Position numbers and translations under genes: made by a program. A stretch of 63,203 nucleotides of DNA from Candidatus Nanoarchaeia archaeon. GTDB lineage: Archaea; Nanobdellota; Nanobdellia; CSSed11-243R1. The stretch is taken from contig JAQTNH010000001.1 in NCBI GenBank assembly GCA_028713895.1, positions 93,847-157,049 of the forward strand. Direction: 5' to 3'. Of the stretch, positions 5,704 to 63,102 are shown piece after piece. The notes under the pieces were generated by a model, which did no database searches, was not told the origin of the DNA, and saw only the letters and a program-made list of their open reading frames with translations. Numbering within the stretch: the stretch's first letter is position 1; each line of letters opens with the position of its first letter.

Positions 5704-5744
5704 CAGCCCTTTTGCTCATTGCATTCGCAAAGCGCTGGCGGAAA
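5704..5744 (+). repeat. C-C mismatch hairpin element, intergenic copy between primase and GINS
   Basis: Written on the plus strand, the left arm is CAGC-C-CTTT (5704-5712) and the right arm AAAG-C-GCTG (5729-5737), followed by GCGGAAA (5738-5744). Arms and tail match the tRNA-His intron base for base. The loop includes complementary TTGC/GCAA. It is a non-coding insertion in the 108-base gap between the priS stop and the GINS start. It is antisense to both genes as drawn here, and could fold in either orientation. Confidence 0.7.
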
Positions 5745-5752
5745 TTAATATA

Positions 5753-7027
5753 TCACTTCTTTTTTGCCGCTTTCATCCTGCGGAAGGGATAGACAACGGG
5801 GTTTTTGATGTTTGCGCAGAATGTGTCCGGCCTGCAGATGCCTATGTCTTTGTAGAAATTTTCGTTTGTACAGGCTGGAGGGAGGTACTTGTCCTTCAGC
5901 TTCCCGTGCCAGCCAAGCTGCCCGCGCACATAACCCTCGGCAAGGGGCTTCGGGTTCTTCTGGTTCCACTTGAGAACATCTGCTTCGATTGCTTCCCTGC
6001 CCCAGCCGCAGCTGCGCAGGAAATTTATCAGGATGAATAACGCCCGCTTGCGCCCCTCTTCCATGCCATTGTAAATGTTTTTTATGCAGGGCGGGAAGAA
6101 TTCTGCAGGAATCGCCTCTTTCGGCAGCTCGAACTCTTTTTTGATGATATCTTCGTTCTTTTCAAGCTGTTCCTTCATGTTCCAGTCAAAAGCCTCTATG
6201 AAGAGCTGGCGCGCCTCGTCCTTCTTGAATTTGTCAAGGTATCCGAGCTCTGTTGTAACATTCCTGGCATCTGCCATCTCTGGCTTGAAAGAGTCCAAAT
6301 CTTTTTTGCGGAGTGGGATTGAAATCTTCCAGGTTTTTTCATTGAAGACATACGGCATCCTCATGAGGTGCCTGCTTGAAATCGCGATTGTGTCTATCTC
6401 CAGGACTTTGTACGGGTCGAATTCCCCTTCTGCCACAAGCTCCTTGAACTGCTTTCCTGTGCGCCTGCAGATTTGCTTTATGTCCTCGAACTCAAGAATC
6501 TTGTCTGCAAGAGTCTGGCGTATCATCTGCTTGAGATAAGCTGCAATCATGCGCGCGCCTTCAGGAAACTGCAGGGCGGTCTGGGAGCCGTTTATCTCCC
6601 TGGGGAATGATTCAAATGGTATCCCTATATGGAACCCTGTGCCGCCTGAGAACTTTATTGAATAATTGCTGACTGAATGGAACTCAAGGGCATCGCAGAG
6701 AAGCTTTGCGCAGATTTTTGCGTATTCAACCTGCTTTGTGTCAATGTCAATTATGAAGTCCCAGCCTGTGCGGATGGTGTCAAGGTCCTTTTTGGTTTTT
6801 GCAGCTGCAAGGTTCATTGGATTTGACCAGCGCTCAAGAGAGGCATGGAACGAAGTCGCCCCTTTCTTTACAAGCTCGGCAATGTCTGCGTTATAGCTGA
6901 GCACATCAGGGCGCGCCCCAACCTTGTCATTGAAGCGGGCAACCACTTCGCGCTGCTTTGCAGCGGCAATAATCCTATCTTTTACGCTGTCGCTTGAGTA
7001 ATAGCGGATAATGTCTGAAAAAAGCAT
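5753..7027 (-). CDS. priS: Single-polypeptide DNA primase (PriS catalytic domain fused to PriL-type Fe-S domain)
   Basis: 424 residues. Residues 1 to about 290 are the archaeo-eukaryotic primase catalytic domain: D94-I-D96 metal ligands, S128-G-G-T-G-F-H134 nucleotide-binding motif, the third acidic residue near D212, then S-R-H-L-M-R-M-P-Y. Residues about 305-424 do not belong to ordinary PriS. They look like the PriL C-terminal Fe-S domain, with C314 (F-P-P-C), C386 (P-P-A-C), C398 and C404 and the N-P-V-V-Y ending. The PriL N-terminal domain is absent. Monomeric fused primases are known from Nanoarchaeum and other DPANN archaea. First gene before GINS; it makes RNA/DNA primers. Confidence 0.88.
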   Translation of the reverse strand: MLFSDIIRYYSSDSVKDRIIAAAKQREVVARFNDKVGARPDVLSYNADIAELVKKGATSFHASLERWSNPMNLAAAKTKKDLDTIRTGWDFIIDIDTKQVEYAKICAKLLCDALEFHSVSNYSIKFSGGTGFHIGIPFESFPREINGSQTALQFPEGARMIAAYLKQMIRQTLADKILEFEDIKQICRRTGKQFKELVAEGEFDPYKVLEIDTIAISSRHLMRMPYVFNEKTWKISIPLRKKDLDSFKPEMADARNVTTELGYLDKFKKDEARQLFIEAFDWNMKEQLEKNEDIIKKEFELPKEAIPAEFFPPCIKNIYNGMEEGRKRALFILINFLRSCGWGREAIEADVLKWNQKNPKPLAEGYVRGQLGWHGKLKDKYLPPACTNENFYKDIGICRPDTFCANIKNPVVYPFRRMKAAKKK

Positions 7028-7094
7028 ATGATAACTTTAGTGAGTAACATTTAATAAGGTTTACCAATTTAGAAAGTATAGGTGAGATTACAGG

Positions 7095-8012
7095 ATGGCT
7101 GTATTTGAAATTATTTTGCTTGTCTTGGCGGTTGCAGCAATAATATCCGCTGTTGATTTTGTTGCAAAGACAACCTCGAACATTACCCACTCGCTCGGAA
7201 TACCTGAATACCTTGCAAGCACAATAATAATCTCCTTTGTTGTCGTGGTTCCTTTGTTCGTGGTCATGCAGATAACAAATGTGTATGATGTGCCTGTGTT
7301 CGGGCTTTCAACTGCCCTTGGATTCACGCTCGCTTTAATCACGCTGGTGATGGGGATTTTCCTGATAAAAAATGAGCTGCCTGTTGAGTACGAAGGATAC
7401 AGGAATGCAACTTTTATGTGGGCGGCTGCACTGCTGCTTTTCATTGTTTCTTTTGACAAGTTCATAGACAGGATGGATGCCGTGTTCCTCTTGATTTTGT
7501 TTGTGTTTTATACAATCTACATAATTTACAGGACAGAAAAGTCAAAGGAATATGTTTACCTCAAGCAGGTTGTTTTCAACAGGCTGCTGTACCCGGTTTC
7601 AATAGTTGCGATACTGATATGCTCGTGGGTTATTGTTTACAGCAGCCTTAATCTTGGGCTGCAATTCAATATCCCGCTTGAAAAAGCCGGGTTCATAGTG
7701 CTGGGGCTGATATTTGCAATCCCCATGTTTGATATAATACCGTCCAGCTTCCGCAGTTCGCGGCTTACATTTGACAACATAATCGGGAGCGTTATCGTGT
7801 GCATGACGCTGGTTCCGGCTGCAGCCGCACTAATAAGCCCTGTGCCCCTGACTCTCGGGGGGGATTTGACGCTGGTTCCATTCCTGCTGCTTAATGTTGT
7901 AACGCTTATTTTTGCGCTGTCCACACGATTGACTTATTCGCTGCACAAGAAGATGGGAATATTTTTGATTGCCCTGTATGTGCTCTCGCTGGCATACATG
8001 TTTATCCGTTAG
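7095..8012 (+). CDS. CaCA-superfamily-like membrane protein with lost acidic motif residues
   Basis: 305 residues with about ten hydrophobic segments in two related halves, the layout of sodium/calcium exchangers. The first alpha-repeat region is L-G-I-P-E-Y-L-A-S followed by F-V-V-V-V-P-L-F-V-V. The second is F-A-I-P-M-F-D-I followed by D-N-I-I-G-S-V-I-V. The Pro of the usual G-T-S-L-P-E motif is kept in both halves, but its Glu is not. Transport activity or substrate may therefore differ. AGGTGAG precedes the ATG. It is divergent from the primase gene and convergent with purM. Confidence 0.55.
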   Translation: MAVFEIILLVLAVAAIISAVDFVAKTTSNITHSLGIPEYLASTIIISFVVVVPLFVVMQITNVYDVPVFGLSTALGFTLALITLVMGIFLIKNELPVEYEGYRNATFMWAAALLLFIVSFDKFIDRMDAVFLLILFVFYTIYIIYRTEKSKEYVYLKQVVFNRLLYPVSIVAILICSWVIVYSSLNLGLQFNIPLEKAGFIVLGLIFAIPMFDIIPSSFRSSRLTFDNIIGSVIVCMTLVPAAAALISPVPLTLGGDLTLVPFLLLNVVTLIFALSTRLTYSLHKKMGIFLIALYVLSLAYMFIR

Positions 8013-8054
8013 CCTTCAGCCTGATTCTGCCCAGGCGGATGCGTTAAATTTTCA

Positions 8055-9173
8055 TTAAAGCAAACCAAATTTGAGAATCTTTTCTTTCTTGAAAAAGCCG
8101 TTGTTTGCGATTGAAATGTTCTTGTCAGTGGTAATTTTGCCTATCTTTTTTGCAGCAATGTGGTGGTCCTGTATAATGCCAATCACGTTTTCAGCCTCGT
8201 CTTTTGGAGCAATGGTTATTCCGCCAGTTCCCCCATTAAATGTGTTATACATGTCCTCGTCCGCAACATTTCCCCATTCCTGGCAAAGACGCATTATCTC
8301 AGGGGTGGGAAGAGGGTCGTCTATCAAAGCGCCCAAACCTGAAGGCTTCAGCACCCTGCCTAACTTTTCAGGAATTCCTCCGCCAGTAATGTGCGCAAAG
8401 CCGTGGATTTCTGCCTTAGGCTCATTATTATACCCGCCAAACATATCAACAACTGCGGGCGTATAAATTACAGAAGGCTGAATCACGCTGTCTGCAAGGC
8501 GAATCTCATCATAACTTGCTTTGTACCATTCTGGGCCCCACTTGTTTTCCATTGTTTTTCGCACAAGTGAAAGCCCGTTTGAGCGGAACCCGTTCTCTGC
8601 AAGCCCTATCAAAACATCATCGGGCTTTATTTCGCGCCCTGTAAACATCCTGTCTTTTTTCGCAAACCATATTGCAACGCCGCCCCAATTGTAATTGAAC
8701 GGGCCGTAGCCACCGACACGGCTGCCAAGCTCAGAAGTCTCTCCAGTCAAAACCGCGACATTTGCAGCTTTCGCAGCCCGCACATAGCCAAGTGCAAGGT
8801 CCTTTGCCTCTTTTGCACGGCCTGTCAGGCTATTGGTTGCAAGCTCTGAAATAATAGCCACAGGCTCTGCGCCGCGCACAACAGCATCATCACATACCAT
8901 TGCAAACAAGTCAAAAGCCATTGTGCTGTGATTGCCAGTATACTCTGCGAGATATGTTTTTGTCCCGATTCCATCTGCGCCTGCGCCCATGTACGTGCCT
9001 TCTGGCAGATTGGAAACATTAATTGCCCGAACCCCACTGAAATCATCAAACGGACAGATTACCTGACCAATTTGGCCCACCCTGTTTGCCCAGGTTTCTT
9101 TTGCAGCATTGTAAAGAATTTTTGAAACATCCTCTTTTGCTTCGTTGTCCACACCAGCGTCTTTGTAGTTCAT
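8055..9173 (-). CDS. purM: Phosphoribosylformylglycinamidine cyclo-ligase (AIR synthetase)
   Basis: 372 residues. It closes the imidazole ring: FGAM + ATP gives AIR, the fifth step of purine synthesis. Family marks: MNYKDAGVD start, G-A-D-G-I-G-T-K near residue 65, D-D-x-V-V-R-G-A-E-P, G-E-T-S-E-L, and the Gly-rich F-A-H-I-T-G-G-G-I-P-E-K. The start at 9173 is chosen because GGAGG lies 7 bases before it and the protein then begins at the family's normal N-terminus. The longer frame adds 17 unrelated residues. Last gene of purL-purQ-purM. Confidence 0.95.
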   Translation of the reverse strand: MNYKDAGVDNEAKEDVSKILYNAAKETWANRVGQIGQVICPFDDFSGVRAINVSNLPEGTYMGAGADGIGTKTYLAEYTGNHSTMAFDLFAMVCDDAVVRGAEPVAIISELATNSLTGRAKEAKDLALGYVRAAKAANVAVLTGETSELGSRVGGYGPFNYNWGGVAIWFAKKDRMFTGREIKPDDVLIGLAENGFRSNGLSLVRKTMENKWGPEWYKASYDEIRLADSVIQPSVIYTPAVVDMFGGYNNEPKAEIHGFAHITGGGIPEKLGRVLKPSGLGALIDDPLPTPEIMRLCQEWGNVADEDMYNTFNGGTGGITIAPKDEAENVIGIIQDHHIAAKKIGKITTDKNISIANNGFFKKEKILKFGLL

Positions 9174-9198
9174 TCTAAACCCTCCATAATATCCAATT

Positions 9199-9981
9199 TT
9201 ATTTGTTAAAATAAGCGACAGCATTCCTGAAAAGCTTCAATCCAGGGCCTTCGGTTGGCATCTTTTTGCCAATCCTTTTGTAGTGGTCCTTAAGCCAGTA
9301 ATATTTTACATGCGGTTTCATATCAACTGCGCGCTCCGGGTGCGGCATCATTCCAATCAGCCTGCCTGTGGAATCAGTTATGCTTGCTATGTCTTCAAGT
9401 GCGCCGTTCGGATTTGCAGGAAGGTGCTGGTAGCTGCAGACTTCTCCGGATATATACCGCGCAGCAACCTGATTGTTCTCGTTTAATTCTTTAAGCACAG
9501 CAGGCTCTGCATAGAATCTTCCCTCGCCGTGCGCTATTGGCAGGCTTATTGTGCCAATGTCTTTTGTCCACGGGCTGTCAGAGGCGAACTCCAGGTCAAC
9601 CCACCTGCAGTTATAACGGGCTGTGTTGTTGTGCACCAGTGCTGTTGTTGGCTCGCCAGGCAGGAGCCCGAGATTTACCATAACCTGAAAGCCATTGCAG
9701 ACTCCGATTGCAAGCTTGTCATCGCTGACAAAATCCTCAAGCGCATCCAAAAGATGGTTCTTGATTTTGTTTGCAAGCGCTTTTCCAGAGCCTGTGTCAT
9801 CTCCGTAGGAGAATCCGCCAGGGAAACAAAGAATCTTATATTCGTCAAGGCAGGTTTTTTTGTTTATCAGGTCATTGATGTGCACAATATCTGCTTTTGC
9901 GCCTGCAAGCCTGAATGCATGTGCTGATTCGTAATCACAATTTATCCCGTATCCTGTCAATACCAAAACTTTAGGTTTCAT
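9199..9981 (-). CDS. purQ: FGAM synthase, glutaminase subunit
   Basis: 260 residues, class I glutamine amidotransferase. The nucleophile is C95 in G-V-C-N-G-F-Q. The partner His is in M-P-H-P-E-R near residue 220, together with its Glu. P-G-G-F-S-Y-G-D-D is typical of PurQ. It feeds ammonia to PurL, whose stop codon is one base upstream, so the two are probably translationally coupled. Purine pathway, cytosolic. Confidence 0.95.
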   Translation of the reverse strand: MKPKVLVLTGYGINCDYESAHAFRLAGAKADIVHINDLINKKTCLDEYKILCFPGGFSYGDDTGSGKALANKIKNHLLDALEDFVSDDKLAIGVCNGFQVMVNLGLLPGEPTTALVHNNTARYNCRWVDLEFASDSPWTKDIGTISLPIAHGEGRFYAEPAVLKELNENNQVAARYISGEVCSYQHLPANPNGALEDIASITDSTGRLIGMMPHPERAVDMKPHVKYYWLKDHYKRIGKKMPTEGPGLKLFRNAVAYFNK

Positions 9982-9982
9982 C

Positions 9983-12982
9983 TCAATACCCCTCGAATGT
10001 TGATTTATACGATTTTAATAATGAATCAACTGTTGTGCTGACAATTTCTTTGTCATCAATCCCTCTTATTATAAAGCGGTTGTCTCCGCGCACAGTTCCA
10101 ACTTCGGCAATAGATGTTCCATGCATTATATCCTCAAATTGGTCCTTGTATTGCGGAGCAACAGTCACGACAAGCCTGCCAGGGCTCTGAGAAAACAAAG
10201 AATAATCATCGCGCGAATATACTCCGTTCGCTTCTGCAAGCGATATGTCCATCCCCAACATGCCTCCCATTGCTGTTTTTACAAGCGCAACACTGACGCC
10301 GCCGCGGTCTACACTCTGTACAGAAGCAACCAGCTCTGCGTCGATAGCCTTGGAAAGCGCATTGTATGTTTTCTTGTTTTCATGCGTATAAACTTTAGGG
10401 ACATTGTTTCCTATGTACGGCTTTCCCCTCTGCTTCTCTCCTTCCATTGCAAAGTATTCGGAGCCTCCGAGCTCGTCCATGTTGGTTCCCAGTATGTACA
10501 CAATGTCTCCTTCGCATTTTGCATCCAATGAAACTGATTTGGCTGCGTCTTCTATCACACCTATTGATGAAATGAGAAGTGTTGGGGGAACTGAAATCTT
10601 CACTTTCTCCCCTTTTTCGTTGTATCCCTTGAAGTCATTGAACATGCTGTCTTTTCCAGAGATGAACGGAGTGCCGTATGCAATAGAAAAGTCATGGCAT
10701 GCCCTTGCCGCCTCTTTCAGCTGGAACAACCGCTCAGGCTCATCCGAGCTGCACCAGCAGAAATTATCAAGAAGCGCAAGATGCTCCATGTCAGCGCCTG
10801 CTGCAACCGCATTCCGTATTGCTGTGTCAATTGCGCATGCTGCCATGTGATAAGTATCAATACTGCTGTATGTCGGGTTTATTCCCTGCGACAGCACAAC
10901 CCCTTTTTTTGAAGTGAGTAACGGGCGTATAACTGTTGCGTCGCCATTTACTCTGCCTGCTCCCTGCAGAGGCTTAAGCACTGAGCCGCCCTGGACCTCG
11001 TGGTCATACTGCTGCGAGATGAACTCGAAGCTTGCTATGTTCGGGCGCTTCAGCATCTCGTGAAGGGTCTCTGTCCAGTCCTGCTGCAACGGGATTTCAG
11101 GCGCTTCATGCACAGTATGTACCCTTTTTGTTTTGATTGGACGCTGCGGAAGCCCGTCATGCAGGAATTCCATGTCAACATCCATAACTATTTTATTTTT
11201 GTAGTCCACAATGCATCTGCCTGAATCTGTGAACTCACCTATGACTGTTGCTTCTACTCCGCGGTTTTCCATCAATTCAGAAAACTCTGCCCATTTGTCC
11301 TTTGGTACTGAGAGCGTCATGCGTTCCTGCGATTCGGAAATCCAGATTTCCCACGGCTCCAGTCCAGGATATTTAAGGGGGACAGCGTTCAGATTAACAT
11401 AACAGCCGCCGCATTCCCTGGCCATCTCAGCCACAGAACATGAAAGGCCGCCTGCCCCGTTGTCAGTAATGCTGGTGTACAGCCCCATATCACGCGCTTC
11501 CTTTACAATCGCATCGCTAAGTTTTTTCTGTGTTATCGGGTCGCCAATCTGCACAGCTGTTGCAGGACTTCCCGAGTCCATTGCTTCGGATGAAAATGTT
11601 GCGCCGTGAATCCCGTCTTTTCCAACGCGTCCGCCAACCATTACAATATAATCGCCAGGCTCTGCTTTTTTCTGGCAGGAATCCCGCCCACAGCTTTCTA
11701 CCGGAATCAATCCGCCTGTGCCGACAAAGACAAGCGGCTTGCCTTTGTATCCTTCGTTGAAAAATACAAAACCCTGCGGCGTTGGAATGCCTGAGCAGTT
11801 GCCTCCGACATTCACGCCTTCAATCACTCCGTCCATAATCTTCCGTGAAGAAAGCATCTTTTGCGTAAAGTTCTCTCCTTTGTAAAGGGGAGATGTGTCA
11901 TTCGGGTCTGCGAAACAGAACCCGTAGATATTGAAAATAGGTTTTGCACCAAGGCCGAAGCCGATTGCATCGCGGTTTACTCCGACAATGCCTGTTATTG
12001 AGCCACCGAACGGGTCAAGCGCAGAGGGGGAATTGTGCGTCTCAACCTTGTGAGTTACAATGTAATCCTTATCAAATACAATCCCGCCAGCGTTGTCTGT
12101 GAAAACCGAAACACAGAAATCTTTCTTTCCCTTGCGTTTTCGTATTGTGTTTGTTGCTGATTTGATGAATGCCTTGTATAATCCTTCCCCGATATCATCA
12201 ATCTTGTCTGCAAAGATGGTGTGCTTGCAGTGCTCAGACCATGTCTGCGCAATTGATTCAAGCTCAACATCAGTCGGATTTCTTTTTTCATTTTTGAAAT
12301 AACCTTGAATTGTTTTCATGTAAGTAATATCAAGAGCGAGCGGACCCCTTCTGGTGCCGTCTGCATTTGCAATTCCCTTCTTGCCTATCACTGCCAGTTC
12401 CTCATCTGTTGCATTCAATATGTCAACAAGGTCTGCAGAAGGCTCCTTGTTTAGCTTTACTTTCGGAACGATGGTTGGAAATCCTTTGCCAGACTCCAGT
12501 TCTTTATAATCAAAAGTGCTGATTCGCTGGATGAGCGGGTTTGCCATGCTGTCCTTTATTGTCTTTAGTTCTTCAGGAGAAAGATTGCCTTCGATTAAAG
12601 TAACCTGAGAAGTGTAAACCCCTTCGTCAGGAGCGAATTCTGTTCCGAATAAATCAGCTATCCCCTCTTTTACTGTGTGCGAAACATTGTCGGTAACACC
12701 AGGAAGATACCCTACTTCAATTGCATGCAGTTCTATACCTTTTTCAGGAGATTTGGGCAGCTCTGAGCCTATCACAGGTTTTTCTGTGACAGGATTAACA
12801 AGCATTGCAGATATTTTCTGCAATTCTTCCCCGGAGAATTCCTTGTCAATTGTATAAACATCTCTTATCCTGACTTCCTTTATTTTTTCGGCAGGAACTA
12901 TTGTTTCAAATTTCTTTCGCCTGACATCAGCGCGGGTGTCAGAAATTTTTGATTCAATCTCTATGCGTGTAGCTCTTGGCAT
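9983..12982 (-). CDS. purL: FGAM synthase, large subunit with N-terminal PurS-like region
   Basis: 999 residues, far longer than the roughly 700-residue PurL of most archaea. Residues about 35-160 show two PurS-like stretches (V-R-I-R-D-V-Y ... and ... H-A-I-E-V-G-Y-L-P-G-V-T-D), so a separate PurS may be unnecessary. The rest is the duplicated AIR-synthetase fold: W-S-E-H-C-K-H, the E-T-H-N-S-P-S substrate loop, G-G-N-C-S-G-I-P-T, and S-I-T-D-N-G-A-G-G-L near residue 500. No premature stop or frameshift is visible. AGGGG precedes the ATG. First gene of the purine operon; FGAR + Gln + ATP gives FGAM. Confidence 0.93.
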   Translation of the reverse strand: MPRATRIEIESKISDTRADVRRKKFETIVPAEKIKEVRIRDVYTIDKEFSGEELQKISAMLVNPVTEKPVIGSELPKSPEKGIELHAIEVGYLPGVTDNVSHTVKEGIADLFGTEFAPDEGVYTSQVTLIEGNLSPEELKTIKDSMANPLIQRISTFDYKELESGKGFPTIVPKVKLNKEPSADLVDILNATDEELAVIGKKGIANADGTRRGPLALDITYMKTIQGYFKNEKRNPTDVELESIAQTWSEHCKHTIFADKIDDIGEGLYKAFIKSATNTIRKRKGKKDFCVSVFTDNAGGIVFDKDYIVTHKVETHNSPSALDPFGGSITGIVGVNRDAIGFGLGAKPIFNIYGFCFADPNDTSPLYKGENFTQKMLSSRKIMDGVIEGVNVGGNCSGIPTPQGFVFFNEGYKGKPLVFVGTGGLIPVESCGRDSCQKKAEPGDYIVMVGGRVGKDGIHGATFSSEAMDSGSPATAVQIGDPITQKKLSDAIVKEARDMGLYTSITDNGAGGLSCSVAEMARECGGCYVNLNAVPLKYPGLEPWEIWISESQERMTLSVPKDKWAEFSELMENRGVEATVIGEFTDSGRCIVDYKNKIVMDVDMEFLHDGLPQRPIKTKRVHTVHEAPEIPLQQDWTETLHEMLKRPNIASFEFISQQYDHEVQGGSVLKPLQGAGRVNGDATVIRPLLTSKKGVVLSQGINPTYSSIDTYHMAACAIDTAIRNAVAAGADMEHLALLDNFCWCSSDEPERLFQLKEAARACHDFSIAYGTPFISGKDSMFNDFKGYNEKGEKVKISVPPTLLISSIGVIEDAAKSVSLDAKCEGDIVYILGTNMDELGGSEYFAMEGEKQRGKPYIGNNVPKVYTHENKKTYNALSKAIDAELVASVQSVDRGGVSVALVKTAMGGMLGMDISLAEANGVYSRDDYSLFSQSPGRLVVTVAPQYKDQFEDIMHGTSIAEVGTVRGDNRFIIRGIDDKEIVSTTVDSLLKSYKSTFEGY

Positions 12983-20386: not shown

Positions 20387-21061
20387 ATGACTATGAAACT
20401 TGAGAAATCCGAGATTCCAGGCGTATTCTGGCTGGAAAACGGCAAAAAACATCCTGCCACGATAAATCTTGTGCCTGGCATAAGGGTATACGGCGAGAAG
20501 CTCGTAAAGGAAGGCGGGGTTGAATACCGCGAGTGGGACCCATACCGCTCAAAGATAGGCGCAGCAATAATGCGCGGAGTGGACTTCCCGGTAAAAGCAG
20601 GGGACAAGGTGCTTTATCTCGGGGTTGCAAGCGGAACCACTGCAAGCCATGTAAGCGACATTGTCGGGGCAAAGGGAAAGGTTTTTGGTGTGGATATTGC
20701 AGAGCGCACAATGCGGGACCTGATATTTGTGGCTGAGAAGCGCAAGAACTTGACTCCAATACTTTCAGATGCGCAGAAACCAGAGAACTACAGGTTTGTC
20801 GGAGAAGTTGATTTTGTTTTCGCGGATGTCGCAATGCCAAACCAGGCCGAAATCCTGATAAAGAACTGCGATGCGTTCCTGAAAAAAGGCGGCTTTGCAA
20901 TGATTTCAGTGAAGGCGCGCTCAATTGACGTGAATGCAAAGCCAAGCGAGGTTTTCGCAGAGGAAGAAGCCATCCTGAAGCAGCATTTTGAGATAATTGA
21001 CAAAAAGCGGCTTGAGCCGTATGAGAAGGACCACATCATTTTCCTGCTGAAAATGAGCTAG
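20387..21061 (+). CDS. flpA: Fibrillarin, rRNA 2-prime-O-methyltransferase
   Basis: 224 residues. The SAM-dependent methyltransferase of box C/D RNPs. Visible marks: G-V-F-W start, Y-R-E-W-D-P-Y-R-S-K-I-G-A-A-I, the SAM loop Y-L-G-V-A-S-G-T-T-A-S-H-V, V-F-G-V-D-I-A, D-V-A-M-P-N-Q-A, S-V-K-A-R-S-I-D, and E-P-Y-E-K-D-H. An ATG two codons in is an equally good start. CATTTATAAA about 25 bases upstream suggests a leaderless message. Partner Nop5 is at 15.8 kb. Confidence 0.95.
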   Translation: MTMKLEKSEIPGVFWLENGKKHPATINLVPGIRVYGEKLVKEGGVEYREWDPYRSKIGAAIMRGVDFPVKAGDKVLYLGVASGTTASHVSDIVGAKGKVFGVDIAERTMRDLIFVAEKRKNLTPILSDAQKPENYRFVGEVDFVFADVAMPNQAEILIKNCDAFLKKGGFAMISVKARSIDVNAKPSEVFAEEEAILKQHFEIIDKKRLEPYEKDHIIFLLKMS

Positions 21062-21093
21062 TTTTTCTTTTTGGCAACCTGCATTTTTCTTTC

Positions 21094-21124
21094 AAGCCTT
21101 TTAGAAAAAAGCCTTGAGGGAAAA
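21094..21124 (+). repeat. C-C mismatch hairpin element, AAG-arm type
   Basis: Left arm AAG-C-CTTTT (21094-21102), right arm AAAAG-C-CTT (21107-21115), tail GAGGGAAAA (21116-21124). The arms pair except for one C facing one C, as in the tRNA-Asn intron, whose arms are AAG-C-CTTTCTT and AAGAAAG-C-CTT with tail GGGAAAG. It lies 33 bases after the fibrillarin stop, in the 216-base gap before the thermosome. Confidence 0.65.
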
Positions 21125-21127
21125 CTT

Positions 21128-21182
21128 CTTCCGCCAGCGCTTCTTTCCCAAGGCTTTCTTTGCAAGAAAGGCTTAAGGGCTG
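21128..21182 (-). repeat. Nested C-C mismatch hairpin element
   Basis: Read on the minus strand, outer left arm CAGC-C-CTT (21182-21175), outer right arm AAG-C-GCTG (21142-21135) and tail GCGGAAG (21134-21128) match the His/Leu intron type. Between them sits a complete element of the Asn intron type: AAG-C-CTTTCTT (21174-21164), loop GCA, AAGAAAG-C-CTT (21160-21150), tail GGGAAAG (21149-21143). The inner 32 bases are almost identical to the tRNA-Asn intron start. It faces the neighbouring copy at 21094. Confidence 0.7.
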
Positions 21183-21277
21183 GAAGAAAAAGGCGGAGAG
21201 AAAACCTTAAAAAGTGCTGAATTTTTGAATAAACTATTCTGGGGTTTAATGCTCACGATTTAATGGAGGAATTAAAA

Positions 21278-22912
21278 ATGACAAATTCACCGCAACAGCC
21301 GGTATATATCCTGCCTGAAAACTACTCAAGGCAGATTGGAAAAGATGCGCAGCGCACAAACATAATGGCTGCGAGAATTGTAGCTGAGACAGTCAGGACA
21401 ACTCTGGGTCCGCGCGGGATGGACAAGATGCTTGTTGACACTCTCGGAGACGTTGTAATAACAAACGACGGAGTCACAATCCTACAGGAAATGGAAATAG
21501 AGCATCCTGCAGCAAAAATGATGGTTGAGATTGCAAAGACGCAGGAAGAAGAGGTTGGAGATGGCACTACGACTGCTGTGATTATAGCTGGAGAACTTTT
21601 GAAAAAAGCAGAGACTCTTTTGGAGCAGGAGATTCATCCGACTGTAATTGCAAAAGGCTATCAGATGTCAGCAGACAAAGCGCAGGAAATTCTTCAGAAC
21701 ATTGCAATAAAAGTTGACATTAATGACGAGGTAATGCTCAAAAAAATAGTGACGACAGCAATATCCGGCAAAGGCTCAGTCTCAATAAAGGATTCGCTGA
21801 ACGCGATAATTGTGCGGGCTGTCAGGGAAGTTGCAGAGAAATCCGCAACAAAAACTGTTGTTGATATTGACAACATAAAGATTGAAAAGAAAACAGGCGG
21901 AGGCATAAGCGACAGCGAACTTATCCAGGGAGTTTCAGTTGACAAGGAAAAAGTACACTCGCAGATGCCACGCGAAGTCAAGGATGCGCGAATACTCCTG
22001 CTTGACTGCGCTCTTGAGGCAAAAGAAGCAGGCTCAGACACGCAGATACGAATCAACACACCCGAGCAGATGCAGGCATTCATTGAGCAGGAAGAAAAGC
22101 AGCTCAAGGATATGGTTGACAAGATAATCGCACTGCGGGCAAATGTCGTATTCTGCCAGAAAGGGATTGATGACATTGCACAGCACTTCCTTGCAAAAAA
22201 AGGAATCTATGCCTGCCGCAGAGTCAAACAATCGGATATGGAAAAACTTTCAAAGGCAACAGGGGCAAAGATTGTCTCAAACCTGAAGGATGCGAATGAA
22301 TCAGATATGGGCGCAGCAGGAATGGTTGAAGAAAAGAAAATATCCGGCGAGGCAATGACATTTGTAAAGGACTGCAAGAACCCGAAAGCAGTCACAATTT
22401 TGGTTCGCGGGGGAACTGAGCATGTTGTTGACGAGGTTGAACGCGCAATCAAGGATGCGATAGGCGATTTGGCAGCTGTCATTGAGACAGGAAAAATCGT
22501 TGCAGGCGGAGGCGCACCAGAGATTGAGGTTGCAAAAGAGCTTCGAAAGTATGCAGCTTCGCTTGGCGGAAAAGAACAGCTCGCAGCAAATGCATTCGCA
22601 GATGCGCTTGAATCAATACCGCGCACACTTGCAGAGAATGCAGGACTTGACCCGATTGACATAATCGTGAACCTCAAGGCAGCGCATGAAGACGGACAAA
22701 AATGGGCTGGAGTCGATGTTTTCACAGGCGAAATCAAGGACATGGAAAAAATGCATGTTCTTGAGCCGCTCAAAGTCAAGACCCAGGCAATAAAGTCAGC
22801 AAGCGAAGTGTCAATAATGATTCTGCGCATTGACGATGTGATTGCAGCAGGAAAGCTCAGCGGAAGAGGGCCGCAAGGGCCTGGCGCAATGGGCGGAATG
22901 CCTGAAATGTAG
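21278..22912 (+). CDS. thsA: Thermosome subunit (group II chaperonin)
   Basis: 544 residues. ATP-dependent folding chamber subunit. Marks: [38 protein letters not shown] near 205, and the apical lid region. The tail G-A-M-G-G-M-P-E-M is of the Gly-Met type. GGAGG lies 8 bases before the ATG at 21278, which decides this start over an ATG five codons earlier. One subunit gene is present here; others could lie elsewhere. T-rich DNA after the stop (22914-22950) is a likely terminator. Confidence 0.96.
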
Positions 22913-55538: not shown

Positions 55539-56624
55539 ATGGGAGACAAAGCAGGCACAAAAAAGAGAATTGAAGAGCTTGGAAAAATGCTGCTGAAAGA
55601 GATTAAGGCAGGCAACAACCCGTTCATGGACATCCCAATCCGCGCGCTTTCAAATGTCGCATTCAACCCGAAAAGCAGAATCATTGAGATGGGCGATGCA
55701 AAATCAAAAAGATACTTTTTCAATATTGCGCACATACGCAAGTTCGTGCAGACAGTCACTGCAGCTGCAATCGCACGCGAGCTCCTGGCAGTTGACAAGC
55801 ACCTTAGCCTGCGTCAGGTTTTCTACCGTATGAGGCGAACAATTCCCGGAACAAACATTGACATGGTTGACGAACAGACAGAGAGCAACGAGGCAGTCGA
55901 GGATATGGAACTGCTTTCAGACAGTTCGCGCGAACTGCTGCACATCAATGCAAACAAGAACGGCTCGGCAGCAGGAAAAATCATAATCAAAGACAAGGGT
56001 GATTTGATTGACTGGTCAAAGCTCGGGAGCGGAGGCTGGGCAATCCCATCAAACACCGAGGACATTGAGTTCAAGAAAGTGGATGCAAAGTTCGTGATTT
56101 ACATGGAAAAAGCAGCAATGTGGGAGCGCCTTCACGAGGATAAAGTGTGGGACAAGCTTGACTGCATAATAATTGCATCACAGGGACAGGCAACAAGGGG
56201 AATCCGAAGGCTTCTCCAGCGAATGAACACAGAGCTCAAGCTGCCGGTTTATATCCTGACTGATTTTGATCCGTGGGGATGGTATATCTACTCTGTCCTG
56301 AAATTCGGCTCAATCGCTTTGGCATACGAATCAAAGCGGCTGGCAATCCCGAATGCAAAATTCCTGGGCTTGACAGCAGAGGACATCAAGAAATACGGGC
56401 TGGAGCGCCAGAAAATCAAGTTCACTGAGCGCGATGCAAGCAGGCTCAAGCAGATGGTTGATTATGACTGGTTCAAGGACAACAAGGACTGGCAGAAGCA
56501 GTTCAAAATGATGCAGCAATACGGCGGCAAAATCGAGCTGGATGCACTTGTAACTAAGGGAATCAGCTTTGTCTCAGAAAAGTACCTGCCTGAGAAAATC
56601 AAGAACAAGGACTGGATAGACTGA
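55539..56624 (+). CDS. top6A: Topoisomerase VI subunit A (Spo11-like)
   Basis: 361 residues. Catalytic Tyr near residue 96 in R-Q-V-F-Y-R-M-R-R, Toprim acidic motif D-F-D-P-W-G-W-Y-I-Y. Cleaves both DNA strands with 2-base overhangs. It starts one base after the top6B stop, with AGGTGA as ribosome site. Odd: its last 21 bases (encoding N-K-D-W-I-D-stop) are repeated after the gene with only synonymous changes, separated by a hairpin element. Confidence 0.95.
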   Translation: MGDKAGTKKRIEELGKMLLKEIKAGNNPFMDIPIRALSNVAFNPKSRIIEMGDAKSKRYFFNIAHIRKFVQTVTAAAIARELLAVDKHLSLRQVFYRMRRTIPGTNIDMVDEQTESNEAVEDMELLSDSSRELLHINANKNGSAAGKIIIKDKGDLIDWSKLGSGGWAIPSNTEDIEFKKVDAKFVIYMEKAAMWERLHEDKVWDKLDCIIIASQGQATRGIRRLLQRMNTELKLPVYILTDFDPWGWYIYSVLKFGSIALAYESKRLAIPNAKFLGLTAEDIKKYGLERQKIKFTERDASRLKQMVDYDWFKDNKDWQKQFKMMQQYGGKIELDALVTKGISFVSEKYLPEKIKNKDWID

Positions 56625-56675
56625 TTTTTCCGTGCACGCTTTTTAAAAGGGTGCAACAAGGACTGGATTGACTAA
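56604..56675 (-). repeat. Hairpin element flanked by a 21-base duplication of the top6A 3-prime end
   Basis: Direct repeats lie at 56604-56624 and 56655-56675, with 19 of 21 bases the same. Both read Asn-Lys-Asp-Trp-Ile-Asp-stop; the two changes are ATA/ATT and TGA/TAA. Between them, read on the minus strand, is GCAC-C-CTTTT (56654-56645), then AAAAG-C-GTGC (56643-56634), then tail ACGGAAAAA. The arms differ from the tRNA-intron copies but stay complementary and keep the facing Cs. Confidence 0.7.
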
Positions 56676-57174: not shown

Positions 57175-57290
57175 GCCCGTGTAGCTCAGTGGCAGAGCGG
57201 CAGCCTGTTAAAGCCTTTCTTCCGAAGAAAGCCTTGGGAAAGAAGGATGCTGCGAGCTGTAGGCCGCAGGTTCGAACCCTGTCACGGGCG
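57175..57290 (+). tRNA. trnN: tRNA-Asn (GTT) with 44-base intron
   Basis: Acceptor GCCCGTG pairs with CACGGGC (57283-57289). D stem GCTC/GAGC; anticodon stem GCAGC (57200-57204) with GCTGT (57256-57260). Loop C-T-G-T-T-A, anticodon 57207-57209, variable AGGCC, T loop TTCGAAC. The intron (about 57211-57254) sits at the canonical 37/38 position and is mostly the C-C mismatch hairpin, ending in a second copy of the 3-prime anticodon strand (GCTGC). No encoded CCA. Confidence 0.9.
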
Positions 57291-58627: not shown

Positions 58628-59329
58628 ATGGCGAGCCTTAAAAAATACGTTTTGGTTGGAATCCTTGGGATAATCTTACTCATAGCAGGGATAATGGTTT
58701 TTGCAAAGCTTGGCGAGGAAGTGGTTGTGGTGCAGAACAACACGACAATCATTGAGCCTGAAATCGATGAAATACTTGAATCGCTTGAGAGGTTCAATGA
58801 CCCAAGATTCGAGGATTCAACGCTTTATGTAATCCTAAACGCAGAGGGAGAAACCAACCTTTCATTCAAGGTCTCGTCTCTTGCAGTCCACAACACATTT
58901 TTTGACGCATGGTACCCCCTGAACAACATTTCAACAGAAATAAGCGGGGACAGGATTATCCTCAAAAAGATTTTTGCTGATGCAGGGGTGGTATACAATG
59001 AATTTTATGTTTACATCCCAGAGGCTGTTCTGAATGAGAACGGAACAATGAGGAATGCCACAATGCCGCAGAACAAGTTCCACATGTACAATGAGTTCGT
59101 TGAACTTATCGCAGGAGAAACTGATTTGATTGAAATCACAATCCTCAAGGACAAATCGCTGTTCGAGGATGCAGATGGCACTCTTGTGTTTGCGCCGCAG
59201 ATAAGGATAACATCGCACAAAAACCTGACTATGCCTGATATAGACTCTGGACAGCTGTGGTTCAACGTGACAATGGGCATGAACAATAATGGCACTGTAG
59301 AAGCTGGCTATAAGTATACCCCCAAATAG
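58628..59329 (+). CDS. Membrane-anchored extracytoplasmic protein
   Basis: 233 residues. One N-terminal helix (about 6-28: Y-V-L-V-G-I-L-G-I-I-L-L-I-A-G) anchors a beta-rich outer domain with several N-x-T/S sites (N-N-T-T, N-G-T, N-V-T). No family recognised. GGAAGGA precedes the ATG. The next gene is a small two-helix membrane protein, so the two may act at the envelope. Confidence 0.68.
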   Translation: MASLKKYVLVGILGIILLIAGIMVFAKLGEEVVVVQNNTTIIEPEIDEILESLERFNDPRFEDSTLYVILNAEGETNLSFKVSSLAVHNTFFDAWYPLNNISTEISGDRIILKKIFADAGVVYNEFYVYIPEAVLNENGTMRNATMPQNKFHMYNEFVELIAGETDLIEITILKDKSLFEDADGTLVFAPQIRITSHKNLTMPDIDSGQLWFNVTMGMNNNGTVEAGYKYTPK

Positions 59330-59359
59330 TTTATTAACCAGAATCTGCTTCTTTAAAAC

Positions 59360-59575
59360 ATGGTGAGCACAAGAGGAGTTGTTATCGGAATTCTTGTAAT
59401 GATTTTTGGGTTTATCGTGATGATTACAGCCCTGTCCCCGCAATTTTTGTTCAGCATGGGCATACTAAGCGTTGCCTGGTACAACACGATACAGAGCCAG
59501 TTCAAGATTTGGGGCATTTCCCTGAGCATCCTGATTATAATAATCGGCTTGGTTGTAATGGGCAAAGTTGACTAG
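59360..59575 (+). CDS. Small two-helix membrane protein
   Basis: 71 residues: helices at about 6-35 and 50-68 with a polar loop containing W-Y-N-T-I-Q-S-Q-F-K. No family recognised. Thirty bases after the anchored protein, possibly in the same transcript. Confidence 0.6.
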   Translation: MVSTRGVVIGILVMIFGFIVMITALSPQFLFSMGILSVAWYNTIQSQFKIWGISLSILIIIIGLVVMGKVD

Positions 59576-59622
59576 ACAAAGCGAAAAGGTTTAAAAGAGT
59601 TGAATATTTCTTCTTCATTATT

Positions 59623-59735
59623 GGCCCAGTAGCTTAGCCTGGTGGAGCACCGGTCTTATACGACGCGCACGGAACAAGTTTCCATGCGAGCTCCGAGTTA
59701 ACCGGGGGTCCTGAGTCCAAATCTCAGCTGGGCCA
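59623..59735 (+). tRNA. trnI: tRNA-Ile (TAT) with 39-base intron
   Basis: Acceptor GGCCCAG with CTGGGCC (59728-59734), discriminator A. D stem GCTT/GAGC. Anticodon stem CCGGT (59650-59654) with ACCGG (59701-59705). Loop C-T-T-A-T-A gives anticodon TAT at 59657-59659. Variable GGGTC; T stem CTGAG/CTCAG. The intron, about 59661-59699, follows position 37 and has its own hairpin (GCACGGAA...TTTCCATGC). The T loop is TCCAAAT, with C where Psi55 is expected. UAU reads AUA directly. Confidence 0.85.
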
Positions 59736-59757
59736 TATTAATGTTTACGTGAAAACT

Positions 59758-60924
59758 ATGAAAATCGCAATTTTTACAGACATGTTCTTGCCAAGTGTCG
59801 GAGGAATCATAACATCCACCTGCCATCAGGCAGAGGAGCTTGTAAAGAGAGGGTATGATGTGGCGATATTTGCGCCTGGAGAACGAAAAGAAATTTGTGA
59901 TTACAAAGGCGCAAAAGTTTATTATCTGGACTCAAAAACATTCCTTTTCTCGGATTTCAGGATTTCGCATCCGCACCAGTTCGGAAAAGAGCTTGAGAAT
60001 ATCCTGCTGAAAGAAAAGCCGGACGTATTCCATATCCAGACCCCATTTCCAATTGGGTTGGCAGGCATTTACTACGGAAGAAAATTCAAAAAACCAATAG
60101 TCATGACGCTGCACGGAGACGTTGAAACGTATACTGCACAAATCACAAAGGGAAGATTTGAGAAACTAATAAAGAACACAGCTGGGAAATTAAGCATGGC
60201 TTTTATAAAATTTCTCTGCAACCGCTGCACCAAAGTAATAACCCCAGGGAACAGCATAGACAAATATTTCAGGGATTACGGAATAAAAAACACTGTTGTA
60301 ATACCAAGCGGGATAGCAGAGATGCCAAAACAGAAGGGAAGAATTGGCATACGCAAAAAGTATGGCATCCCCAGGGATGCAGAAATAATACTTTATTTCG
60401 GAAGAATAAGCTTTGAAAAAAGAATCGATGTGCTCGTCAGGGCATTTGATGTTTTAGAAAAGACAAACAAAAAAGCGTTTCTTCTGATTGCAGGAACAGG
60501 GCCCCAGCTAAAGCCCTTGGAGAACCAAGTAAAAAAGATGAACCTTAAAAATGTAAAATTCGCAGGTTTCGTGCCAAACGAAGAGGTTCTGCCCGTATTC
60601 AAAGCAAGCAGCATTTTCGCATCTGCCTCTGATACTGAAGCACAGGGACTCACATTTGTAGAAGCGCTGTTTGCTGGAAAACCAATTGTCGGAGCAGACA
60701 GATTCGGGGCGCAGGACATGATATTTAACCATAAAAACGGGTTTTTGTTCAAACCAGTGAATGCAAAAGAAATGGCTGAAAAGATGAGCCTGATTCTCAA
60801 TGACAGGAAACTTGCCAAAAGAATGGGCATTGAATCCAGAAGAATCTCAAAAGAGTACACTGTTGACAAATTCGTAAACAGGATTACAAAATTGTACGAA
60901 GATGTAGTAAGGCATAACGTTTAA
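59758..60924 (+). CDS. GT4-family (GT-B) glycosyltransferase
   Basis: 388 residues. D-M-F-L-P-S-V-G-G-I start of GT4 enzymes, H-G-D near 122, the C-terminal nucleotide-sugar domain I-L-Y-F-G-R-I-S-F-E-K-R, and the E-x7-E region E-A-Q-G-L-T-F-V-E-A-L. Adds a sugar to a lipid or glycan; donor unknown. First of three glycosyltransferases interleaved with tRNA genes, suggesting an envelope glycan locus. The ATG at 59758 is preferred; a GTG three codons earlier is open. Confidence 0.88.
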   Translation: MKIAIFTDMFLPSVGGIITSTCHQAEELVKRGYDVAIFAPGERKEICDYKGAKVYYLDSKTFLFSDFRISHPHQFGKELENILLKEKPDVFHIQTPFPIGLAGIYYGRKFKKPIVMTLHGDVETYTAQITKGRFEKLIKNTAGKLSMAFIKFLCNRCTKVITPGNSIDKYFRDYGIKNTVVIPSGIAEMPKQKGRIGIRKKYGIPRDAEIILYFGRISFEKRIDVLVRAFDVLEKTNKKAFLLIAGTGPQLKPLENQVKKMNLKNVKFAGFVPNEEVLPVFKASSIFASASDTEAQGLTFVEALFAGKPIVGADRFGAQDMIFNHKNGFLFKPVNAKEMAEKMSLILNDRKLAKRMGIESRRISKEYTVDKFVNRITKLYEDVVRHNV

Positions 60925-60952
60925 AAACCAACCCAAGTTCTTTTTAATATAA

Positions 60953-61027
60953 GCTCCGATTGTCTAGTCCGGTCAAGGATCCTGGCCTTTCGAGCCAGTG
61001 ACCCGGGTTCAAATCCCGGTCGGAGCA
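60953..61027 (+). tRNA. trnE: tRNA-Glu (TTC), no intron
   Basis: Acceptor GCTCCGA with TCGGAGC (61020-61026), discriminator A. Anticodon stem CTGGC/GCCAG around loop C-T-T-T-C-G-A, anticodon TTC. T loop TTCAAAT. 75 bases, without intron or encoded CCA. The only uninterrupted tRNA gene in the window. Confidence 0.95.
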
Positions 61028-61053
61028 CATTATTTTTATTAAAATGTGATAGA

Positions 61054-61779
61054 ATGGCAAATCCCAAAATTTCAATAATAATCCCTTCATACAATGAAGA
61101 AGAACAAATTGGCGACCTTTTTGAATCTATCAAAAAACAGAAATTCCAGGATTACGAGGTAATAGTCTCGGACTCTGGAAGCACAGACAACACAGCAAAG
61201 ATAGCAAAAAGCTACGGCGCAAAGGTAATCACAGGCCCAAAGAGAGGCCCAGGCGCAGGAAGGAACCTCGGGGCGAAAGAGGCCAGGGGCGACATACTTG
61301 TTTTCTTTGATGCTGATGTCAGGCTCGTGGAAGAAGACATATTAAAATCCATTGAAGAGCTGTTCAAACGTAGAACAGATGTTGTGGGCGGAACAACAAG
61401 GTACGGCGCAAAGGACGGGGCATTGATAAACAGGCTGATTTACAAAATCGGAGAGATAGTGCACCCTATATTTTTTACGAAAGGATTTGTCCCAGGATTC
61501 TCGCATTTTGTGCAAAAAGAAAGTTTTGAAAAAATAGGGGGATTTAATGAGAACCTGCAGGCTGGCGAAGATATTGATTTGGGTTCAAGATTAATCAAGG
61601 TTGGAAAGATGGTCACATTAAAACAAAAGGTTCTGGCGTCTTCAAGAAGACTGACACAGTTGGGATGGACGGAAGTGCTAAAAACCTGTGCGATAAGTGC
61701 ATTTTGCAATATTTTCAAAAAAAATAACCCAAAAAGCATCATATTCAAACCTGCTTCAGGACTGAAAGGAAAAGAATAA
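61054..61779 (+). CDS. GT2-family (GT-A) glycosyltransferase, copy 1
   Basis: 241 residues. I-S-I-I-I-P-S-Y-N-E-E start, V-S-D-S-G-S-T-D-N-T, the D-x-D region F-F-D-A-D-V, and the later G-E-D-I-D-L-G acidic motif. No membrane helices. Probably transfers sugar from NDP-sugar to a lipid or glycan. Bases 61129-61278 match copy 2 (62293-62442) at 149 of 150 positions, whereas the rest of the two genes is well diverged. Confidence 0.88.
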   Translation: MANPKISIIIPSYNEEEQIGDLFESIKKQKFQDYEVIVSDSGSTDNTAKIAKSYGAKVITGPKRGPGAGRNLGAKEARGDILVFFDADVRLVEEDILKSIEELFKRRTDVVGGTTRYGAKDGALINRLIYKIGEIVHPIFFTKGFVPGFSHFVQKESFEKIGGFNENLQAGEDIDLGSRLIKVGKMVTLKQKVLASSRRLTQLGWTEVLKTCAISAFCNIFKKNNPKSIIFKPASGLKGKE

Positions 61780-61810
61780 TTTTTTAAATACTAAAATCCG
61801 GGGTATACAC

Positions 61811-61927
61811 ATGAAACGAGGCTCAAGAATCTGGAAAAAGCGAAGACAGTGCAGATGGAGAACCAGAAAAAAGATAATCAGGGAAAGAAAACGCAAACGA
61901 AAACAGGAAAGATTGCGAGCAAAGTAG
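61811..61927 (+). CDS. Very small, highly basic protein (eL41-like)
   Basis: 38 residues, MKRGSRIWKKRRQCRWRT followed by repeated Lys/Arg to R-L-R-A-K. About half the residues are Lys or Arg. Its own promoter (TTTTTTAAATACT at about 61782) lies about 25 bases upstream and a GGGG sits nine bases before the ATG. Size and composition resemble ribosomal protein eL41, which is a single basic helix; the identity is not certain. Confidence 0.6.
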   Translation: MKRGSRIWKKRRQCRWRTRKKIIRERKRKRKQERLRAK

Positions 61928-61994
61928 TCCTAAGTAGTTATTTCTTTTTTGTTATGAAAACCTTAAAAAGGGCTTTCGGGTTAGAATTAATTAT

Positions 61995-62132
61995 GCGGAG
62001 GTACCCAAGCCAGGTCCAAGGGGCAGGACTTAAGCAGCCCTTTCTGCGCTTTGCTTGAAAGCGTTGGCGGAAAGGAAGCTGAAGAAATCCTGTAGCTTAG
62101 TGCTCTCGTGGGTTCAAATCCCTCCCTCCGCA
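61995..62132 (+). tRNA. trnL: tRNA-Leu (TAA) with 52-base intron
   Basis: Acceptor GCGGAGG with CCTCCGC (62125-62131), discriminator A. Anticodon stem CAGGA (62024-62028) with TCCTG (62088-62092). Loop C-T-T-A-A-G gives TAA at 62031-62033. Long variable arm (62093-62107) as expected for Leu. One T-T mismatch is present in the T stem. The intron (62035-62086) follows position 37 and contains CAGC-C-CTTTC (62035-62044), GAAAG-C-GTTG (62057-62066) and GCGGAAA (62067-62073). Confidence 0.88.
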
Positions 62133-62136
62133 CATT

Positions 62137-62158
62137 TTCTCTTTTTGCAAAAAGAGAA
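62137..62158 (+). repeat. Perfect 22-base palindrome after tRNA-Leu
   Basis: TTCTCTTTTT, GC, then AAAAAGAGAA, directly after the tRNA. It could act in 3-prime processing or termination. It resembles the tip of the nested hairpin at 21 kb (CTTTCTTTGCAAGAAAG), but has no facing Cs or GGGAAA tail, so I keep it separate. Confidence 0.5.
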
Positions 62159-62220
62159 TCATTAATGGAAAAGAAGGATAGCTTTAAAAATTAAGAACTG
62201 CCTTCAAATTGCGTGATAAG

Positions 62221-62943
62221 ATGAGTCCAAAAATATCGGTGATTATACCAACACTGAACGAGGAGAATTATCTAGCCAGGACTCTGGACTCAATCAAAAA
62301 ACAGAAATTCCAGGATTACGAGGTAATAGTCTCGGACTCTGGAAGCACAGACAACACAGCAAAGATAGCAAAAAGCTACGGCGCAAAGGTAATCACAGGC
62401 CCAAAGAGAGGTCCAGGCGCAGGAAGGAACCTCGGGGCGAAACATGCGCAGGGAGAATTATTGATGTTCATGGATTCAGATTCAGTGCTAAAATCAGACG
62501 ACATGTTTAACGCTATAATTGAAACAATGAACAAAAAAGATGTTGGAGGCGGGTTCTTCAAGGTAAAAGGCATCGGTAAAAAGAGCTGGCTTTACAATCA
62601 TTTTTTCAACACACTTTTAGAGCTGTTCTGCCTGCTCAAAAAACCTTTGACAGGAGGCTACTGCATATTCGTTGACAAAAAAAGCTTTGATGCGCTCAAT
62701 GGATTTGATGAAAACATAGAGATTTGCGAGGACTTTGATTTTTCATGGAGAATAATAAAGAAACTCAACAAAAAAGTCAAATATGTGCGCAAACGGACAG
62801 TTGAAACCTCGACACGAAGATGGGAGCATGGAAGCTTAAAGCAGCCGCTGGAATACAGCAGGGCGTTCTTGAACTTTCTCTTGTTCAAGAAAGTGCCAAA
62901 AGACAAGTTCAAATTCAAAGCAGCAAGCGAACTAAAAAAGTAG
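62221..62943 (+). CDS. GT2-family (GT-A) glycosyltransferase, copy 2
   Basis: 240 residues from the ATG at 62221 (GTGAT three bases upstream). I-S-V-I-I-P-T-L-N-E-E start, S-D-S-G-S-T-D-N-T, D-x-D in F-M-D-S-D-S, and I-C-E-D-F-D-F-S-W near 175. Paralogue of the gene at 61054, with a nearly identical 150-base central block. The acceptor-side C-terminal half is different, so acceptor or product probably differs. Confidence 0.88.
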   Translation: MSPKISVIIPTLNEENYLARTLDSIKKQKFQDYEVIVSDSGSTDNTAKIAKSYGAKVITGPKRGPGAGRNLGAKHAQGELLMFMDSDSVLKSDDMFNAIIETMNKKDVGGGFFKVKGIGKKSWLYNHFFNTLLELFCLLKKPLTGGYCIFVDKKSFDALNGFDENIEICEDFDFSWRIIKKLNKKVKYVRKRTVETSTRRWEHGSLKQPLEYSRAFLNFLLFKKVPKDKFKFKAASELKK

Positions 62944-62984
62944 ATTAGAAAGTTTTTAAAACATAAGTGATTCTGATTTTGTAT

Positions 62985-63102
62985 GTCCCGGGTAGTTTAG
63001 TGGTAGAATTAGAGGCTGTGGACAGCCCTTTCGCCTGCAGCAAAGCGCTGGCGGAAAACTGGCAAAACCCTCTGGACGCGGGTTCGATTCCCGCCCTGGG
63101 AC
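62985..63102 (+). tRNA. trnH: tRNA-His (GTG) with 46-base intron
   Basis: G-1 (62985) faces C73 (63102), the His identity pair. Acceptor TCCCGGG with CCTGGGA (63095-63101). Anticodon stem AGAGG (63011-63015) with CCTCT (63069-63073). Loop C-T-G-T-G-G; anticodon 63018-63020. T loop TTCGATT. The intron (63022-63067) holds CAGC-C-CTTT (63023-63031), AAAG-C-GCTG (63042-63050) and GCGGAAA (63051-63057), identical in these blocks to the intergenic copy at 5704. Confidence 0.9.

Follow-up and report, generated by a model that had tools for sequence, protein, structure and literature searches.

The window analysed here is a stretch of 63,203 nt from the archaeal genome of a Candidatus Nanoarchaeia archaeon (assembly GCA_028713895.1, contig JAQTNH010000001.1; G000:C1:93847-157049 in our numbering), an assembly of 1.07 Mb that is 89.5% complete. 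It carries short hairpins of a single design, some within tRNA introns and others in intergenic DNA. These hairpins are one real family and not chance pattern matches. They are probably copies of one small, non-autonomous archaeal mobile element that is inserted at the DNA level and then serves as an intron where it has entered an RNA gene.

The hairpin family and its copies in the window

The element has a core of about 28-50 nt, in which a 4-bp arm is followed by a C/C mismatch, by CTTT(C/T)n-loop-(A/G)nAAAG, by the complementary arm, by a dinucleotide and by a purine tail, GGAAA. A covariance model for the family was built from 29 copies and used to search the whole genome, where it found at least 49 copies at E<=0.01 and at least 66 at E<=1. 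Among the other genomes of the class, at least 35-53 copies were found in three relatives of the same family, three genomes from outside the family had at least 10-16, and in most of the remaining ones the model detected no copies; all of these counts per genome are lower bounds, 150 candidates having been scored in each.

Support for common design came from the arms. Pairing at the four arm positions was standard in 93.3% of cases for 56 distinct copies whose selection took no account of the arms, in comparison with 57.9% after shuffling (0 of 500 shuffles), and the covariation score was 0.882, against 0.223 for shuffled copies and at most 0.113 when the partner was slid along. The outer arm proved to be exactly 4 bp long, with positions 5 and 6 at background. 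The sequence-only reading of this stretch had proposed that pairing is kept while the arm sequence varies, and would have abandoned the family if a genome-wide search had shown no excess of hairpins or no covariation beyond chance; both the excess and the covariation were found.

Simple pattern matching was a weaker guide. The pattern CCTTTN{3,20}AAAGC had 143 matches in the genome and its reversed form had 50, an excess that was rejected as proof of a family and is a weak test, because relatives without the hairpins are enriched as well. When the 371 genomes of the phylum were searched with a fuller pattern, ACCCTTTN{3,18}AAAGCGTNNACGGAAA, 15 of them had matches, and no genome matched the reversed control. 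A known Rfam family was also considered and rejected, since the window and many other loci gave matches at gathering score to host RNAs only (tRNA, rRNA, 5S, RNase P).

Within the window, all seven hairpins of the sequence-only reading were present in the sequence, and the model matched the seven with E values from 1.4e-8 to 2.3e-5 (all of them being members of its training set), the next match in the window having E = 0.33. The model did not match the outer half of the nested pair separately; that half was identified by eye. The copies and the repeats around one of them are the following.

5704-5744, plus strand: intergenic copy, CAGC-C-CTTT...AAAG-C-GCTG-GCGGAAA; model match 5702-5751, E 1.4e-8
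21093-21124, plus strand: intergenic copy, CAAG-C-CTTT...AAAG-C-CTTG-AGGGAAAA; model match 21091-21130
21129-21182, minus strand: composite, an outer CAGC/GCTG hairpin whose loop holds an inner AAG/CTT hairpin (21143-21174); exact window match
56604-56624, no strand assigned: target duplication, copy 1, AACAAGGACTGGATAGACTGA, comprising the stop codon of TopoVI-A and the C-terminal codons before it (NKDWID*)
56625-56654, minus strand: copy at the 3' end of the TopoVI-A gene and antisense to it, GCAC-C-CTTTTAAAAAG-C-GTGC-ACGGAAAAA; model match and flush direct repeat
56655-56675, no strand assigned: target duplication, copy 2, AACAAGGACTGGATTGACTAA
57211-57247, plus strand: intron of tRNA-Asn (gene 57175-57290), with an AAG/CTT hairpin as its base
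62035-62086, plus strand: intron of tRNA-Leu(TAA) (gene 61995-62132), with a CAGC/GTTG hairpin as its base
63022-63067, plus strand: intron of tRNA-His (gene 62986-63102), with a CAGC/GCTG hairpin as its base

Two details of the sequence-only reading had to be amended: the minus strand carries both the copy at 56625-56654 and the nested pair, and the three tRNA introns, in which the hairpins do lie, extend beyond them to the limits listed above. The three host tRNA genes were confirmed by Rfam search. The copy at 21093-21124 is located between a fibrillarin gene (20387-21061) and a chaperonin gene (21263-22912). The composite occurs in two more tandem copies near C1:800000 (L055), one exact and the other 1 base off, with a simple CAGC copy adjoining them. 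A fourth tRNA gene of the window (59623-59735) has an apparent intron without the hairpin.

The purine tail is the mirror image of the inner 3' arm (at L051, for example, the arm reads AAAAAGAAAG and the tail GAAAGAAAAA). When the tail was compared with its own hairpin, 28 copies had at least five further matching bases, against 3.0 in shuffles (maximum 8 in 2000). Such a mirror tail is present at many loci, L051, L047 and L134 among them. The base that follows the inner helix and its C pairs with the arm and also with the base just before the GG of the tail. An antiparallel pairing of tail and inner arm was tried and set aside, as it fits worse than the mirror (parallel-complement) relation. 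This relation might reflect a third strand of purines or a fold that alternates.

Genomic settings, direct repeats and an empty site

Copies were found in tRNA introns, in 16S and 23S rRNA (the latter at L264), in RNase P RNA, at the ends of genes and in the DNA between genes, so that the sharing of one family between tRNA introns and intergenic sites, as proposed from the window alone, extends to the genome and to copies well beyond it. In the own genome, the RNase P RNA copy (L118:372-410, within the RNA at L118:310-649 on G000:C1) falls in a variable stretch of the RNase P model, and about seven copies were seen by eye to lie 0-3 nt from a mature tRNA end (L048, L113, L114, L119, L054, L045, L058), five of them at 5' ends (antisense) and two at 3' ends (sense). 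In the relatives, inspection by eye placed most of the copies seen inside tRNA genes, where a single gene frequently has two or three of them (at the D loop, the anticodon and the T loop), with others in 16S rRNA. Reading frames were avoided, with 28 of 129 copies inside them against 99 expected, and a few copies are in-frame in proteins.

The fuller pattern gave at least 116 stretches in GTDB, with an estimated chance expectation of about 2. All 80 GTDB titles among the matches listed were archaeal, and the taxa among them include Aenigmatarchaeota, Methanophagales, Nanoarchaeota, Altiarchaeota, Micrarchaeota, Thermoplasmata, Methanocellales, Nitrososphaeria and others. The hairpin was also found on five viral contigs in IMG/VR (L316-L320). 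This spread across archaea, the rRNA and RNase P RNA copies, the target duplications and the mirror relation of the tail all go beyond what had been observed in the sequence-only reading.

Evidence for mobility came from the flanks. Some copies outside tRNAs have direct repeats of 11-39 bp that are flush with the left arm, flush meaning that the repeat ends no more than 4 nt from that arm; at a score of at least 13, 14 such repeats were found against 0.35 expected. The cases, together with the window copy, are the following.

L157: repeat of 38-39 nt, 3' end of a 5S rRNA gene and its T tract, element antisense
L236: repeat of 34 bp, exact, ribosome-binding site and start codon of a gene
L039/L064: repeat of 29 bp with 1 mismatch
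L319: repeat of 21 bp, tRNA 3' end, on a viral contig of IMG/VR
L285, L300, L308: repeats equal to tRNA 5' ends, the tRNA 5' part downstream being apparently intact
L153: repeat of 19 bp
L092: repeat of 16 bp, over a start codon
Window copy, 56604-56675: repeat of 19-21 bp, end of the TopoVI-A gene

An empty site was found for the window copy. In four relatives (G001, G002, G003 and G005), the TopoVI-A gene has a single end, NKDWI(D/E)-stop, and no element at this one site, which is what the sequence-only reading had suggested looking for. Mobility at the DNA level is supported by the flush direct repeats and by the empty TopoVI-A site. Several of the duplicated insertions, including L319, are antisense to the gene that was hit, and composite nested copies have been multiplied (L055). 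Duplication length is variable, the left end is sharp and the right end ragged, a combination that does not fit a classical transposase with a fixed duplication.

Further arrangements were observed at other loci. On four archaeal metagenome-assembled genome (MAG) contigs (L200, L214, L220 and L255, the first two from Methanophagales), an in-frame hairpin lies in an IS200/IS605 TnpA-like protein (HVHIFIK-NPFRKSVYGKMLRS-PPKYSVSW), and peptides like the one in-frame in TnpA (TLLEKAFTEK) were seen in unrelated proteins at L225 and L278. Tandem arrays of the element with identical spacers of 17-20 nt are present at L302, apparently in or beside a tRNA gene. Head-to-head compound copies with overlapping tails were found at L110, L136, L142 and L148, the first apparently in a tRNA T-loop intron.

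Copies within RNA genes as predicted introns

Of 272 copies, 52 gave back a tRNA on virtual excision, and none of 270 random sites did so, at least 20 restoring excisions having been set as the threshold; the 52 are a lower bound, since genes with several introns fail the excision test. At the restoring junctions, the bulge-helix-bulge (BHB) motif scored 8 or more in 10 of the 52 tRNA copies, against 1.0 expected. A textbook BHB (3-4-3, a helix of 4 bp with a bulge of 3 nt on either side) was seen in several lineages (L283, L095, L207, L159), that of the tRNA-Glu at L283 reading tcggc CTCT cg^a AACCCT..AGGGTT GGAG cg^a gccga. The splicing endonuclease (PF01974) is encoded in G000 (at C1:268854-269114), G001, G003, G018 and G030, and was not found in G005, which is 68% complete. 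In G018 the same intron occurs in two different tRNA genes (L171 and L173). With the host RNA restored, the BHB motif at the junction and the endonuclease encoded, the copies in tRNA and rRNA genes have, as far as sequence can tell, the properties of archaeal BHB introns.

The element and the splice site are in register. Its left end lies at or beside the 5' splice site, and the left arm with its CC forms the intron-side strand of the BHB, paired with GG and a second complement of the arm near the 3' splice site. The arm could thus pair in two ways, with its complement inside the hairpin or with a third copy that belongs to the BHB, and the register of arm and CC to the splice site is fixed across unrelated tRNAs and archaea. 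In the window, relaxed motifs can be drawn for tRNA-Leu(TAA) (cagga CTTA ag^c AGCC ... AGCT GAAG aa^a tcctg) and tRNA-His (agagg CTGT gg^a CAGCC ... ACTG GCAA aa^c cctct), and the motif of tRNA-Asn is the weakest of the three, with 3/4 central pairs and no intron-side pairs.

Origin of the family and comparison with known systems

The explanation that we favour is that the element would insert at the DNA level, in either orientation and with a target duplication of variable length. An insertion into an RNA gene would survive where the duplication leaves the gene intact, or alternatively where the arm pairs with downstream sequence and the splicing endonuclease and a ligase remove the insert. 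The sequence-only reading had left two options, an intron that also inserts elsewhere and a mobile hairpin exapted as introns. Sharing, excess over chance and covariation are confirmed and mobility is supported, and the second option is provisionally favoured because several duplicated insertions are antisense to the gene, where splicing can have no role.

Several points weigh against this explanation. Only a minority of copies have a detectable duplication, and among the intergenic copies of the window this applies to 56625-56654 alone (the flanks of 5704-5744 were checked for a direct repeat and none was detected). Many intergenic copies in the relatives could be old or of other origin. The window introns have relaxed BHB motifs with 3/4 central pairs, no tRNA intron was seen as a fresh insertion with its duplication intact in a working, spliced gene, and the origin of the BHB's 3' half in a newly inserted copy is not accounted for by the model. 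Finally, a mobilising enzyme was not identified among the families searched, RVT_1 and Y1_Tnp: neither protein was found in five carriers, G000, G001, G003, G005 and G018 (drafts, 68-91% complete). Mobility by an RVT_1 reverse transcriptase was rejected on this result, and mobility of the IS200/IS605 kind was rejected on it and on the presence of target duplications.

The opposite order of events, in which ordinary BHB introns came first, their excised RNA or a DNA copy was captured at staggered breaks, intergenic copies are dead ends and the duplication is break fill-in, appears unlikely. The variable length of the duplications (11-39 bp) and a boundary that is sharp on the left and ragged on the right would suit break capture, as would the left end at the 5' splice site, the copies that adjoin mature tRNA ends, and the fact that in G001, G003 and G005 most copies were seen in tRNA genes. 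Nevertheless, in G030 and the Methanophagales the copies lie chiefly outside tRNAs, minimal copies with a duplication lack the 3' third of the intron (L157, L251, L092), and the lack of an RVT_1 protein in the five drafts also counts against it. That the family is a plain miniature transposon-like or palindromic element, present in tRNA genes by accident and with BHB pairing evolved separately for each host gene, seems to us quite improbable. Antisense insertions, tandem and nested copies (L055, L302) and in-frame insertions in coding genes, as with the Rickettsia palindromic elements, would be expected of it, but arm and CC keep one register with the splice site even between unrelated tRNAs and archaea, which is unlikely to have come from case-by-case evolution.

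Two further explanations received far less credence. A convergent functional motif, such as a protein-binding or processing hairpin kept by selection in copies without common descent, would account for the invariant CTTT/AAAG, the C/C mismatch and the mirror-like tail, which hint at a structure that is read; it is very improbable and largely refuted by the empty site and the duplications, and direct repeats, identical copies in different tRNAs and nested and tandem copies likewise speak against it. Integrase attachment sites, or remnants that integrative elements left behind in tRNA genes, along the lines of the integrase model proposed for Caldiarchaeum (PMC3293823), are barely credible here. 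Several duplications do correspond to tRNA 5' or 3' ends (L285, L300, L308, L319), but only about 30-65 bp lie between the repeats, always with the same hairpin within, and the model was rejected as it leaves unexplained the duplications of a 5S gene end and those that include the stop or the start codon of a protein.

The insertion of a mobile hairpin that then becomes an intron, which remains the preferred explanation, bears directly on the spread of archaeal tRNA introns, whose gain in such numbers is an open question. As the same hairpin is both an intron and a free insertion with a duplication, its copies, empty sites, target preference and enzyme can be searched for directly. A broader claim, to which we give slightly less than even weight, is that a mobile family across archaeal phyla makes tRNA and rRNA introns in bulk, with a variable duplication of 11-39 bp and an arm that is half of the splice-site helix; the intron signal would then be built into the mobile unit, and the conservation of its sequence between distant archaea would imply an unrecognised archaeal enzyme that moves hairpins of 30-50 nt. 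In the open-access literature, we found no report of an intron family shared with intergenic DNA, nor of target duplications that a mobile family had left at tRNA introns of archaea. Asgard archaea have been described as rich in introns at non-canonical positions (PMC11291895), and short direct repeats near intron borders in general have been reported, only four archaeal introns being among those examined (PMC11782384).

The nearest archaeal precedent lies in the Thermoproteales. The gain of tRNA introns is thought to occur at the DNA level by a mechanism described as unknown (PMC4090602), and work on transposition of tRNA introns in this order is cited there and in PMC10714607, in agreement with the statement in the sequence-only reading that such movement had already been proposed. 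In those introns movement has been described between tRNA genes, whereas the present hairpin also occurs in rRNA, in RNase P RNA, at the ends of genes and in the DNA between genes, comes with target duplications and spans several archaeal phyla; none of the 80 GTDB titles among the matches listed was from the Thermoproteales. The transposing introns of the Thermoproteales are said to have been reported by Fujishima et al. in 2010.

Other mobile systems share single features with the family. The Rickettsia palindromic elements are short palindromes found in intergenic DNA, in RNA genes and in-frame in coding genes; however, they are bacterial, longer and have no intron role, and the copies described here are archaeal and have flush target duplications. 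The hairpin ends of IS200/IS605 and their non-autonomous derivatives are mismatched hairpins moved as single-stranded DNA, but their insertion leaves no target duplication, in contrast to this family, and Y1_Tnp was not found in the five carriers. The introners of eukaryotes are mobile elements that make introns in bulk, with target duplication, and the present family may be their archaeal counterpart. If this is true, archaea have an equivalent of the elements thought to have filled eukaryotic genes with introns. Introners, as named in PMC11782384, give spliceosomal introns in protein genes, whereas the introns discussed here are BHB introns in tRNA and rRNA genes, predicted to be cut by the splicing endonuclease and built on a core of about 30-50 nt.

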